Source: Gemmatimonadaceae bacterium
GTDB taxonomy: Bacteria; Gemmatimonadota; Gemmatimonadetes; Gemmatimonadales; Gemmatimonadaceae
Length of the DNA: 64,000 nt
Assembly (NCBI GenBank): GCA_019637355.1
Contig: JAHBVT010000001.1
Span: 1,271,192-1,335,191 of the forward strand
Direction: 5' to 3'
In this document: positions 10,830 through 28,984 of the stretch, piece by piece
How the letters are laid out: every line of letters begins with the position of its first letter
Position numbering within the stretch: position 1 is the first letter of the stretch
Notes under the pieces: generated by a model
What the model was told of the DNA's origin: nothing
The model's input: only the letters and a program-made list of their open reading frames with translations
The model's database searches: none
Made by a program: the position numbers and the translations under genes

Positions 10830-12094
10830 GTGAGCCGTCCGTCGTGACCGCCCCCCAGCGGGGCGTCCAGCGGACCGTCCTCCCGAATGGACTGACCGTA
10901 CTCTCGGAGCATATGCCGGGAGTGCGGTCGGTTGCTTTGGGGGCCTGGGTGCGCGCGGCCGCGCTGCACGAGTCGCGCGAGCAGATGGGCATCTCGCATT
11001 TCCTCGAGCATATGGTGTTCAAGGGCAGCGAGCGGCGCAGCGCGAAGGACATCGCCCTGGCCCTCGAGTCTCTCGGCGGCTCGCTCGATGCCTACACGGC
11101 TCGCGAGCACACGTCCTTCCAGGCGCGCGTGCTCGACGAGCACCTGCCGCAGGCAGCGGACGTGCTCTTCGACCTGATGTTCCGGCCGGCGCTGCGGGAG
11201 AGCGACCTCGAGCTCGAGCGCGGCGTGATCCTTGAGGAACTGGCGATGGTCGAGGACACGCCGGACGACATCGTCTTCGAGGTGCACGGGGAGACGCTGT
11301 GGGGCGACCACCCGCACGGCTACTCGATCCTCGGGACCAACGAGACGGTCGAGGCGCTGACGATCGCGGACCTGCGCGCACTGCACCGCCGGGCCTACCG
11401 CCCCGAGCGGGTGGTGGTGGCGGCGGCCGGCAACGTGTCGCACGAGCAGCTGCTGGCGACGCTGACGGCGGCCGGCTGGGCTGACTTCAGGGGCGAGGGC
11501 CCGCTGGAGCCGATGCCCGTGGCCGAGGCCGTGCCCGCGCCGCCGACCGAGAAGCACGTGGCGCGCGACATCCAGCAGACGCATCTGGTGATGGGCAACG
11601 CGACGGTGCCGCACGGCGACAAGCGACGGCACCCGCTGCTCCTGGTCAACGCGCTCTTCGGTGGCGGGATGAGCTCACGCCTCTTCCAGCGCGTGCGCGA
11701 GGAGCTCGGGCTCGCCTACAGCGTGCACAGCTTCCAGAGCTTCCACGCCACGGCGGGGAGCCAGGGCATTTATCTTGGATGCGCGCCGGAGCGCGTGGAC
11801 GAAGCCGTGTCCGTGGTCCGCAGCGAGCTGGCGCTGCTGCAGATGACCGGCCTCACCGCCGACGAGCTCGCGATGGGCAAGCAGCAGCTGAAGGGCCAGA
11901 TCACGCTGTCGATGGAGAGCGTGCCGGCGCGGATGTACCGTGCGGCGGCGGTGGAGCTGTTCGACGAACCCTACCGGCCGTTGGATGAGGTGCTTGCGCG
12001 GGTGGATGCGATCAGCACTGGTGACGTCGCCGATGTTTGCGGTGCGTTCTATGGGGTGGAGCAGCAGACGGTAGTGCGGCTGGGTCCGACATAG
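10826..12094 (+). CDS. M16 family zinc peptidase (processing-protease-like)
   Basis: Single-domain-pair insulinase-family peptidase of 422 residues, similar to the YmxG/PqqL-type proteins often found after pnp. The inverted zinc motif HFLEH is at residues 58-62 (His58, catalytic Glu61, His62), and the downstream glutamate region LELERGVILEELAMVED is present. The C-terminal half has the usual RVREELGLAYSV segment. The GTG start overlaps the pnp stop by four bases. No signal peptide is seen, so a cytoplasmic location is likely. The substrate is unknown. Confidence 0.92.
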   Translation: MSEPSVVTAPQRGVQRTVLPNGLTVLSEHMPGVRSVALGAWVRAAALHESREQMGISHFLEHMVFKGSERRSAKDIALALESLGGSLDAYTAREHTSFQARVLDEHLPQAADVLFDLMFRPALRESDLELERGVILEELAMVEDTPDDIVFEVHGETLWGDHPHGYSILGTNETVEALTIADLRALHRRAYRPERVVVAAAGNVSHEQLLATLTAAGWADFRGEGPLEPMPVAEAVPAPPTEKHVARDIQQTHLVMGNATVPHGDKRRHPLLLVNALFGGGMSSRLFQRVREELGLAYSVHSFQSFHATAGSQGIYLGCAPERVDEAVSVVRSELALLQMTGLTADELAMGKQQLKGQITLSMESVPARMYRAAAVELFDEPYRPLDEVLARVDAISTGDVADVCGAFYGVEQQTVVRLGPT

Positions 12095-12156
12095 GACGGA
12101 TGACGAATGACGGATGCGCATAGATGGGCGCAGCATCCGTCATCCGTCATCCGTCC
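12094..12156. repeat. Palindromic GGATGACG-family intergenic repeat, terminator-like
   Basis: The left arm (12094-12116) is made of tandem GGATGACG-type units starting GGACGGATGACG. The right arm (12134-12156) is its reverse complement with one mismatch. Together they form a stem of about 23 base pairs directly after the M16 peptidase stop. The same unit recurs at 13309, 33338 and 46715. It probably terminates transcription here, although no clear T-run follows. Confidence 0.75.
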
Positions 12157-25228: not shown

Positions 25229-25737
25229 TGCGGATCGGCTTGATGTCGGACACGCACGACCGAGTACCGGCGATTGACGCGCTGCTGCGCGAGATGCTCA
25301 AGCGCGAGGTGACGTTCGTGCTGCACGCGGGAGACTTCTGCTCGCCGTTCTCGCTGAAGCCGTTTCAGGACCACGGCATCGCGATGGCGGGCGTGTTCGG
25401 GCGCAACGACGGCGATATGGAAGGCCTGCGCGCCACGGCGGCGCAGGCGATGGGGCAGGAGCTGTTCGAGTCGCCGCACGGAATGAAGGTCGGCGACCAC
25501 AAGGTGCTGGTGGTGCACGATATCGGCGAGGTGGTGGAGCGCTCGGTGCTCGCCCACGCGGTCGTGGTGCACGGGCACACGCACCTACAGGAGATGAAGA
25601 CGCGCAACGATACGCTGATCGTGAACCCCGGCGAGGCCTGCGGCTGGCTCTACGGGGCGCCGTCGGCGGCCATCCTCGACCTACAGACCAAGCACGTCGA
25701 GTTCATCAAGCTCGACGGGGCGGAGTGGAAGACGTGA
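25228..25737 (+). CDS. YfcE/MJ0936-family metallophosphoesterase
   Basis: Small calcineurin-like phosphodiesterase of 169 residues. Metal-binding motifs run in family order: MSDTHDR (D and H ligands), HAGDFCS (GD), GVFGRNDGD (GN[D] motif, here R-N-D), VVHD and HGHTHL. The exact substrate is not known; relatives hydrolyse model phosphodiesters. It is coupled to lysA by TGATG and to guaA by a GTGA overlap. The pairing with lysA looks positional rather than functional. Confidence 0.88.
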
Positions 25738-27287
25738 CGCATCCCGGTTCCCGGATCCTGATCCTCGACTGCGGTTCGCAGTTCACCCAGCTCATCGCGC
25801 GACGGGTGCGCGAAGCGCGCGTGTACTCGGAGATCCATCCGCCCACGCGCAGCCTGGAGTGGATCCGGGACTGGAAGCCCAGCGGCATCATCCTCTCCGG
25901 TGGGCCGAGCTCGGTGAGCGATGACGGTGCGCCGGACTTCGATCCGGGCATTCTCGACGTCGCGCCGGTGCTCGGCGTGTGCTACGGGATGCAGTGGATC
26001 GCCAAGCAGGCCGGCGCCGAGGTGAAGGGCGGGGGACGCCGCGAGTACGGGCGCGCCGAGCTGGAAGTCGTCGAGAACGACGGGATCTTCGCGGGCTTCG
26101 ATGCGGGCGAGCGCAGCGTGGTGTGGATGTCGCACGGCGACCACGTGGAGACGGTGCCCAAGGGCTACGTCCTCACGGCCCGCAGCGACGGCAACCCCGT
26201 GGTGGGCTTCCGCCACGCGACCAAGCCGATCCACACGATGCAGTTCCACGCCGAGGTGGCGCACTCGGTGCGTGGCGCCGAGATGATCCAGAACTTCCTC
26301 TTCCGCATCGCCAAGTGCACGCCCGACTGGACGCCGGGGCACTTCATCGACCAGGAAGTCGCCAAGATCCGCCAGCGGGTGGGCAATGCGCAGGTAATCT
26401 GCGGCCTGTCGGGCGGCGTGGACTCCTCGGTGGCGGCGGCGCTGGTGCATAAGGCCATCGGCGACCAGCTCACCTGCATCTTCGTGGACACGGGCCTGCT
26501 GCGTCTGCACGAGCGCGAGCAGGTGGAGCGCACGATGGGCCAGCACCTGGGCATCAAGCTGGTGACGGTGCGGGCGGAGCAGCGCTTCCTCGATGCACTC
26601 AGCGGACTGGACGATCCCGAGAAGAAGCGCAAGGCGATCGGGCACACCTTCATCGATGTCTTCGAGGACGCGTCCGCGGCGGAAGGCAAGGACGCCAAGT
26701 TCCTCGTGCAGGGGACGCTGTACCCCGACGTGATCGAGTCGGTGAGCGCCAAGGGCGGCCCCAGCGCGACGATCAAGACGCACCACAACGTGGGCGGGCT
26801 CAAGCCGGATATGAAGTTCGAGCTGATCGAGCCGCTGCGCGAGTTGTTCAAGGACGAGGTGCGCAACGTGGGCCGCGAGCTCGGGCTGCCCGAGGAGATG
26901 GTCGGACGGCATCCGTTCCCGGGGCCTGGCCTCGCGATTCGCGTGCTGGGCGCAGTGGACCCGGTGAACGTCGAGACGCTGCGGCGTGCCGATGCGATCT
27001 ACCTCGAGGAGATCCGCGCGGCCGGGCTATATCAGGAAATCTGGCAGGCCTTCGCGGTGTTCCTGCCCGTGCGCTCGGTGGGTGTGATGGGCGACGGCCG
27101 CACCTACGAGCACGTCATCGCGCTGCGCGCCGTGACCAGCACCGACGGGATGACCGCTGACTGGTACGCGTTCCCGCACGAGGTGCTCGGGCGGATCTCG
27201 AACCGCATCATCCGCGAGGTGAAGGGCGTGAACCGGGTCGTGTACGATATCAGTTCCAAGCCGCCGGCGACGATCGAGTGGGAGTGA
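25734..27287 (+). CDS. guaA: GMP synthase (glutamine-hydrolysing)
   Basis: Converts XMP to GMP using glutamine and ATP. The class I amidotransferase domain comes first ([17 protein letters not shown], nucleophile Cys in [10 protein letters not shown], His/Glu in QFHAEVAHS). The ATP-pyrophosphatase P-loop follows ([15 protein letters not shown] near residue 225). The C-terminal dimerisation domain shows [16 protein letters not shown] and ends with [18 protein letters not shown]. The GTG at 25734 overlaps the previous stop; a second GTG at 25725 would add three residues. Confidence 0.97.
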
Positions 27288-27619
27288 GCTGAGGACTGCG
27301 GTTCACCACAGAGGGCACAGAGGGCACAGAGAACTGCAGACTGCCAACTCCCTACTTCCAACTCCCTACTGCTGTTAACGCAGAGACGCAGAGATCGCAG
27401 AGCACCACAACGGAAACTGCTTGGGGGGTCCGCACCGACGATTCGGCGCGGACCCCCAAAGCCTTTGTTGTGGCAGTTCTCTGCGCCCTCTGCGTTGAAC
27501 GCCGTTGCTGTTGCCGTTCCAATTGCTGTCGCCGTTGTTCTCGCCGTTCCCCTCGCCGTTGTAGTTCTCTGTGCCCTCTGTGCCCTCTGTGGTGAACGCA
27601 GTTAGCTTCCCTCTCCCCT
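27288..27619. repeat. Gene-free nested inverted-repeat region
   Basis: This 332-base gap between guaA and the MATE gene holds no convincing gene. The outer arms 27301-27334 and 27564-27597 are exact 34-base reverse complements built from CACAGAGGG-type units. Inside, a second set of CGCAGAG-rich arms pairs with CTCTGCG-rich sequence around 27374-27394 and 27479-27499. A central stem forms from GGGGGTCCGC with GCGGACCCCC (27427-27462 area). There is also a 14-base tandem duplication at 27344-27371 and a run of GCCGTT-like words at 27500-27562. The whole can fold into one long stem. Composition is less GC-rich than the neighbours. Confidence 0.8.
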
Positions 27620-28984
27620 ATGCGACTCGCCGCCCTCCGCCCAACCAAGTCCGAGCTGACCGAGATGGCGCGCCTGGCGGCGCCCATCGTGCTCGTGAAC
27701 GTCGGGATGCAGGGAATGGGCCTCGTGGACGCGATAATGCTCGGGCGCGTCTCGTCGGTGGACCTCGCCGCCGGCGGCCTCGGCAACTTCTACTTCTTCG
27801 GCGTTTCCATCATCGGGATCGGCATCCTGATGGCGTTGGACCCCGTCATCGCGCAGGGCATCGGCGCGGGCGACGAGCGGCAGATCGCGCGCGGGATCCA
27901 GCGCGGCATCTTGATGACCGTGATCGTCGCGGTGGTGGTGTCGAGCACCTTCCTGTTCGCCACGCCGGTGCTGGCCTTGCTGCGGCAGCCACCCGAAGTC
28001 GTGCCGCTCGCGGCTGCCTACGTGCACTGGAGCATCCCGGGGATGTTGCCGTTCTTCGCGTTCAATATGCTGCGGCAGGTGCTGCAGGCCTTCCACCGGG
28101 TGTGGCCGGTGGTGCTCGGAGTGGTCGTCGGCAACGTGCTGAACGGCTTCCTGAATTGGGTGCTCATCTACGGCAATCTCGGCTTTGCCCCAGGCGGCGT
28201 GATCGGCTCGTCCAAGGCCACCGCCATTTCGCGCTGGGTGATGGCGCTGGTGGTCTTGGCCGGGGCCTGGCCGAGCATTCGCGAATACCTGCGCCGCTGG
28301 GACCCGCAGAGCTCGACGTTGGCACCGTTGCTCCGGATGTTCCGCTTGGGGCTGCCAGTGGGATTGCAGTTCCTCGCCGAGGCAGGTGCCTTCGGGCTGA
28401 CCACCGTGATGACCGGCTGGATGGGGACGACCGTGCTGGCCGGGCACGAGATCGCGCTGAGCCTCGCGTCGATGACGTTTATGGTGCCGATGGGCGTGGC
28501 CGGCGCCGCCGCGGTGATGGTGGGCCGCGCCATCGGCCGCGGCGACGTGGCGGCGTCGCGGCGCGATGCGGTGGCGGCGCTGGCGGTGGGGGTCGGGTTT
28601 ATGGCGCTCTGCGCGGTACTGTTCGCGCTGGTGCCGGAGACGCTCGCGGGCGTCTATACGCGCGATGCCGCGACGTTCACGCTGGCGGCGTCACTCATTC
28701 CCATCGCCGCGGTGTTCCAGGTGTTCGACGGCACGCAGGTCATCAGCGCGAGCATCCTGCGCGGGGCGGGGGACACGCGCATCCCGGCGCTGCTGCACGC
28801 GCTGTCGTTCTGGGCGGTGGGCATCCCGCTCGGCGCGTGGCTGGCCTTCGGCTTCGATCTAGGCGCGGCGGGACTCTGGTGGGGCCTGACGGCCGGGCTC
28901 GCGGCTGCGGCCGTGTTGCAGGTGCTGCGCGTGAAGGACAAGCTGGGGCGGGACGTTCGGCGCGTGACGATCGACCGCCACTGA
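27620..28984 (+). CDS. MATE family efflux transporter
   Basis: Inner-membrane cation-coupled drug/sodium antiporter of the NorM/DinF type. The product is 454 residues with about twelve hydrophobic segments. The N-terminal half includes MARLAAPIVLVNVGMQGMGLVDAIMLGR and the LDPVIAQGIGAGDERQIARG loop. The C-terminal half repeats the pattern (RLGLPVGLQFLAEAGAFGLTTVM, GVAGAAAVMVGRAIGRGD). The substrate cannot be told. It stands alone between the inverted-repeat region and the oppositely oriented PTS gene. Confidence 0.93.
   Translation: MRLAALRPTKSELTEMARLAAPIVLVNVGMQGMGLVDAIMLGRVSSVDLAAGGLGNFYFFGVSIIGIGILMALDPVIAQGIGAGDERQIARGIQRGILMTVIVAVVVSSTFLFATPVLALLRQPPEVVPLAAAYVHWSIPGMLPFFAFNMLRQVLQAFHRVWPVVLGVVVGNVLNGFLNWVLIYGNLGFAPGGVIGSSKATAISRWVMALVVLAGAWPSIREYLRRWDPQSSTLAPLLRMFRLGLPVGLQFLAEAGAFGLTTVMTGWMGTTVLAGHEIALSLASMTFMVPMGVAGAAAVMVGRAIGRGDVAASRRDAVAALAVGVGFMALCAVLFALVPETLAGVYTRDAATFTLAASLIPIAAVFQVFDGTQVISASILRGAGDTRIPALLHALSFWAVGIPLGAWLAFGFDLGAAGLWWGLTAGLAAAAVLQVLRVKDKLGRDVRRVTIDRH

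Follow-up and report, generated by a model that had tools for sequence, protein, structure and literature searches.

The window (the 64,000-nucleotide stretch of Gemmatimonadaceae DNA analysed here) contains a layered palindrome between guaA and a MATE-type transporter gene. This feature probably belongs to a dispersed family of palindromic elements, as a copy that lacks the gene for the family's partner, GxxExxY, a predicted nuclease that would spread the element or rewrite its arms in a REPIN/RAYT-like manner.

A dispersed element with a fixed composite plan

The element spans positions 27294–27605 and lies in the 332 bp gap between guaA (GMP synthase; 25725–27287, + strand; stop codon ~8 bp ahead of the element) and the transporter gene (27620–28984, + strand). 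Its left end, GACTGCGGTTCACC (27294–27307), consists of the cap ACTGC and the start of the outer arm, while the outer left arm itself, GTTCACCACAGAGGGCACAGAGGGCACAGAGAACTGC (27301–27337), is composed of 9 bp CACAGAGGG units. The outer right arm occupies 27561–27597, of which 27563–27597 exactly complements 27301–27335. Between the outer arms lie (i) a 14 bp tandem duplication in the left spacer (CCAACTCCCTACTT/G; 27344–27371) that is peculiar to the window copy, (ii) two middle arms of the CGCAGAG type, AACGCAGAGACGCAGAGATCGCAGAG (27377–27402) and CTCTGCGCCCTCTGCGTT (27479–27496), (iii) the core hairpin GGGGGGTCCGCACCGA-CGAT-TCGGCGCGGACCCCC (27423–27457, no strand assigned), and (iv) a right spacer with a degenerate GCMGTT hexamer-like array (27501–27560). 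The right end, GGTGAACGCAGTTAG (27591–27605), carries the cap GCAGTT. All of these parts except the core are given on the + strand.

Much of this architecture had been recognised in a first-pass annotation of the same DNA: the distinct CGCAGAG unit of the inner arms, the 14-base duplication and the GCCGTT-rich interior were all noted. Two of its measurements required adjustment. Firstly, the outer arms are indeed exact reverse complements, but over 35 nt rather than 34 (38 nt at 97% identity when extended). Secondly, the central stem is GC-rich as described, but instead of 10 bases it extends over 15 bp, including a single mismatch or wobble (27424–27438 / 27443–27457). Within the window, there is no longer inverted repeat with arms at most 600 bp apart. 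Spurious open reading frames run through the arms on the − strand (27104–27361 and 27352–27786; CALCALCGE and HHRGHRGHRE peptides), and translations of such frames could be misannotated as proteins in carrier genomes.

The folding-energy comparison proposed in the first-pass annotation gave −192 kcal/mol and z = −12.7 for the RNA fold of the element, and z = −14.4 for the other strand (relative to shuffled sequence). These values, together with covariation in the core, are consistent with a long structured non-coding RNA that has a function of its own. Such an RNA is nevertheless the least credible account of the element: the two strands fold about equally well, the arms turn over completely between relatives, and a comparison with Rfam covariance models yielded none above its gathering score (the only matches, to miRNA precursors, were sub-threshold).

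A single-copy structure with unrelated sequence at orthologous loci would have counted against the proposals of the first-pass annotation. Instead, the element is multi-copy, with ~26 dispersed copies in the 3.15-Mb genome. The copies are layered, measure 140–330 bp, and follow a common plan: a cap (AACKGC), an outer arm TTCACCACAGAG(GGCACAGAG)n, a spacer abundant in AACTGC-like hexamers, an optional middle arm AACGCAGAG..., a core CTTGGGGGTCCGCACCGA-NNNN-TCGGTGCGGACCCCCAAG, and then the mirror image. Most copies open with AACKGC-n-TTCACC. Throughout the genome the outer arms are of the CACAGAG type and the optional middle arms of the CGCAGAG type, the latter being missing from approximately six copies. 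Pairing of the core is kept by double-sided changes: 94.5% of cells are paired, and the covariation score exceeds that of all 500 shuffles.

In every layered copy of the genome the order of layers is outer > middle > core. This invariance indicates a stereotyped composite, one that has either been dispersed or been built identically each time. It also bears on the proposal that unrelated repeats inserted independently, layer by layer, at the guaA–MATE locus. The three layers do have different unit sequences, and nested CACGAAG and CACGGAG layers are also seen in two relatives (G002 and G011). However, given the fixed order and the dispersal of the element as a unit, independent insertion is very improbable; what stands of the layered-insertion idea in the first-pass annotation is that layers turn over, by arm replacement at shared loci.

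Within a copy, the similarity between left and right arm does not exceed that between arms taken from different copies, which disfavours a simple model of whole-hairpin copying. A form of that model in which the arms coevolve inside a copy was rejected: identical arms are found in 4 of 24 copies, against 2.7 expected. As in MITEs, there are several copies, dispersed and with terminal inverted repeats; neither filled and empty sites nor copy ends, which overlap the AACKGC caps, showed a clean target-site duplication. At one locus (L046:3015–3415; G000:C1:2539514–2539914), direct copies ~376 bp apart contain the half core CTTTGGGGGTCCGCGCCGAATGGTTC and, separately, a GGGCGGCC-type palindrome. 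These direct copies resemble a tandem duplication in which part of a core was caught up.

Association of the arms with GxxExxY genes

One copy of the element elsewhere in the genome (G000:C1:2757032–2757530) carries the only GxxExxY gene of that genome (G000:C1:2757134–2757463; E = 1.2e-39) between its outer arms. The gene takes the place of the core hairpin, and is bracketed there by TTGGGGG and CCCCCAA. The idea of a non-autonomous mobile element, already raised in the first-pass annotation, gains support from this nuclease-family gene between the arms, from the multiple copies and from the emptiness of the guaA–MATE site in relatives.

The GxxExxY protein matches TIGR04256 (136.5 bits; cut-off 35) and PF13366 (PDDEXK_3; 130 bits; cut-off 22; E = 5.6e-38). 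In alignments of 21 and 29 sequences, E18, D58, E68-x-K70 and QxxxY—residues of the PD-(D/E)XK catalytic type—are invariant. The best fold matches of an AlphaFold model (pLDDT 96.5) are Cas4 and lambda-type exonucleases (prob 0.97–1.0), at E-values of ~0.005–0.02 that place the likeness at the level of fold only. As modelled, GxxExxY is a small member of the PD-(D/E)XK nuclease family with the Cas4/lambda-exonuclease fold, and a predicted nuclease.

A protein-only scan of named genomes returned 80 GxxExxY loci from at least 15 phyla, methanogenic archaea included; the scan profile was built from a closer subset of the 21-sequence alignment, the full alignment being too divergent. A spanning inverted repeat was present at 44 of the 75 genes with enough flank, versus 7 of 2342 controls placed within those loci (Fisher p = 6e-66), and the A-type arm motif was found at 65/78 loci versus 44/660 background windows. 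Strong spanning inverted repeats are lacking at about 40% of loci, and the arms sit to one side of some genes instead of enclosing them. A common grammar governs the arms: C(A/G)CN(A/G)AG recurs every 8–9 bp, in many cases with TTCACC or AACC at the start, and the outer and middle layers of the window element both conform to it. In 18 of 20 GxxExxY genomes from the scan, the arm pattern greatly outnumbers its reversed control; few arm motifs occur in two of the 20 foreign genomes. The location of GxxExxY between or beside repeats of the same style in at least 15 phyla suggests a repeat-plus-nuclease system that had not been recognised before. Enrichment of AACKGC was also considered as a universal signature of GxxExxY and was rejected, as its density of 2.5/kb near the genes (1.3 distally) is matched by 2.6/kb beside MATE controls.

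The association extends to the relatives of the window genome. In the first 29 relatives, repeats flank GxxExxY in 14/29 cases and MATE genes in 0/30. Among 61 relatives, GxxExxY is encoded by 11 of 12 repeat-rich genomes versus 10 of 49 others (p = 8e-6, with shared ancestry ignored). Across 200 genomes of the phylum the counts are 16 of 18 versus 45 of 182 (p = 1e-7, again ignoring shared ancestry), where repeat-rich means at least 16 hits, a threshold of our own choosing. Within one genus, six of the seven genomes with GxxExxY are repeat-rich, versus none of ten without it (shared ancestry likewise ignored). Two repeat-rich genomes, G058 and G196, both draft assemblies, gave no GxxExxY by profile search.

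A second GxxExxY clade (B), sampled in this phylum, is often accompanied by repeats of GGAT units. In a tree of 132 proteins, built on few columns and with many weak forks, all 74 loci with CRCNRAG (A-type) arms and all 14 GGAT loci fall on opposite sides. One genome, G028, holds a GxxExxY of each clade (L057 and L070), each with the matching repeat. The window genome contains dispersed GGATGAC and GACGTGAGA repeats, yet no clade-B gene, indicating that GGAT-type repeats can exist without a GxxExxY partner. Both styles are visible in the window: the inverted repeat GGACGGATGACGAATGACGGATGC / GCATCCGTCATCCGTCATCCGTCC at 12094–12156 belongs to a second dispersed family, with 7 bp GACGGAT units in many stretches of the genome, and the inverted repeat GACTTGAGACGTGAGACGGGGGACGTGAGAG at 816–882 represents a third style, of GACGTGAGA units, with similar sequence in L023 near 5830.

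Arm turnover at shared loci

The guaA–MATE gene order is conserved in 15 genomes of the same genus. A look for empty sites, suggested in the first-pass annotation, revealed that the gap is mostly 7–19 bp in these relatives (28 bp in G002), with no element. A remnant is present in G007, and elements with their own arm type occupy the site in G011 and G015.

In the 1.6 Mb of G011 used for comparison, 9 of the 13 other comparable loci carry an element or part-element at the same position; counting guaA–MATE, the tally is 10 of 14. All G011 elements at these shared loci are made of that genome's own 8 bp units (CACGAAG or CACGGAG), and none has the 9 bp units of the window genome; whole-genome counts agree, each genome lacking the unit type of the other. 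The commonest G011 units match the arms that flank G011's own GxxExxY. At locus L028, a GGGGGTCCGCACCGA core is common to both genomes and the arms are different. Loci that are shared but carry lineage-specific arms indicate that sites persist while their arms are replaced. The comparison shows arms replaced at fixed loci and lineage-specific arms that match the local gene; separate insertions into hot-spots common to both genomes are a less probable account of the shared loci.

Some G011 elements have other peculiarities. At the sites orthologous to L029 and L037, the shared elements are broken by 1–2 kb inserts, resembling insertion sequences, inside the palindrome. At L229:5575–5844 (G011:C1:225575–225844), two arm pairs are interleaved around the shared core, whereas arms in the window genome are strictly nested: the CACGGAG type of this G011 element is outermost on the left but innermost on the right, and CACGAAG the reverse.

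Persistent sites are compatible with selection on the repeats as host regulatory hairpins (e.g., bidirectional terminators or protection of mRNA 3' ends), with GxxExxY as a hitch-hiker. A simple ORF call places the start or end of 17 of the 26 copies no more than 3 bp from a neighbouring stop codon; the fold is very stable, pairing of the core is conserved, and loci are common to different species. A purely regulatory account is improbable all the same: repeats flank GxxExxY far in excess of control positions in the same loci, repeat type tracks protein clade, and no regulatory function would explain complete replacement of the arms. A terminator role and mobility could be compatible.

In the main rival account, GxxExxY would be a selfish nuclease gene of the homing type, inserting itself into hairpins that were already there and that another process moves or maintains, such that the repeats are landing pads rather than products. 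Its best support comes from the GGATGAC repeats that persist without a clade-B gene and from the gene-less, repeat-rich G058 and G196; moreover, GxxExxY occupies the core-hairpin position in the window genome, and the shared loci are older than the present arm types. Homing alone leaves unexplained why arm units genome-wide correspond to those flanking the local gene, and why arms are nearly absent from gene-less genomes of the same genus (0/10). We regard it as unlikely, although a good deal more plausible than a purely regulatory origin.

Proposed mechanism and comparison with known systems

The reading that we favour, of an element partnered and acted upon by GxxExxY, can be set out in three steps: (i) inverted arms of 8–9 bp C(A/G)CN(A/G)AG units would form a long hairpin or cruciform, (ii) GxxExxY would recognise the arm units and then cut or resect at the element, and (iii) repair or insertion would copy arms from other copies, either into new sites (for the most part directly after stop codons) or into existing elements, whose arms would be rewritten to match the gene-bearing copy. 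The genomic patterns described above establish that the arms are associated with the gene, that the element is dispersed and that its arms turn over; from them we infer arm recognition, cutting by GxxExxY and spread by repair or insertion. The gene-bearing copy would be an autonomous-like form, and the window copy would be acted on in trans.

More broadly, and more tentatively, GxxExxY proteins may be the enzymes that founded a class of mobile or self-converting elements, distinct and very widespread in bacteria and archaea, in which one small nuclease of the Cas4/lambda-exonuclease fold spreads inverted repeats of tandem 8–9 bp units and keeps rewriting their arms across the genome. In the open-access full-text literature, the name GxxExxY turned up in only two papers, which address neither its function nor repeats; we found no report linking GxxExxY, PF13366 or TIGR04256 to repeats, and the exact repeat strings do not appear there in any bacterial repeat context. 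The repeat link gives a testable function to a common, uncharacterised protein family, and offers an origin for the CACAGAG-, CACGGAG- and CACGAAG-type intergenic repeats that are abundant and unexplained in many environmental genomes. If true, the rewriting of arms at fixed loci would mean that a single nuclease drives concerted evolution throughout a bacterial genome.

Several known systems resemble this one in part. Like MITEs (e.g., ERIC and NEMIS), the elements are short, non-coding, dispersed and intergenic, with terminal inverted repeats; in contrast to MITEs, neither a DDE transposase partner nor a clean target-site duplication was found for them, and their terminal arms are replaced at the same sites between related species. 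GxxExxY shares its fold and catalytic-type residues with Cas4/lambda-exonuclease-type nucleases, but has only ~114 residues, and in this genome its solitary gene is set between dispersed repeats instead of belonging to a cas or phage recombination operon. The multicopy nucleotide sequences of Geobacter bemidjiensis, which are intergenic families of palindromes or 6–42 nt direct repeats, often several together (PMC2996986), were described without an associated enzyme; likened by description only, they may include repeats of this kind.

The closest known system comprises the REP/REPIN elements and their REP-associated tyrosine transposases, or RAYTs (PMC2817692, PMC3116915). In both, inverted repeats are dispersed between genes, a nuclease gene (often single-copy) is flanked by inverted copies of those repeats, repeat type coevolves with enzyme clade, and gene-less copies are apparently acted on in trans. 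The present system is not a member. A profile search of the window genome for the Y1/HUH tyrosine transposase (PF01797) found no match, whereas five control genomes matched, and the repeats, with their AACKGC...TTCACC ends, have no GTAG or CGTC head. Where REPINs have a GTAG-headed palindrome, these layered 140–330 bp elements have arms of tandem 8–9 bp units. In the place of RAYT, between the element's own ends, stands GxxExxY, a member of the unrelated PD-(D/E)XK nuclease family and no known transposase. The link between GxxExxY and its repeats would constitute an independent, non-homologous parallel to REPIN/RAYT.
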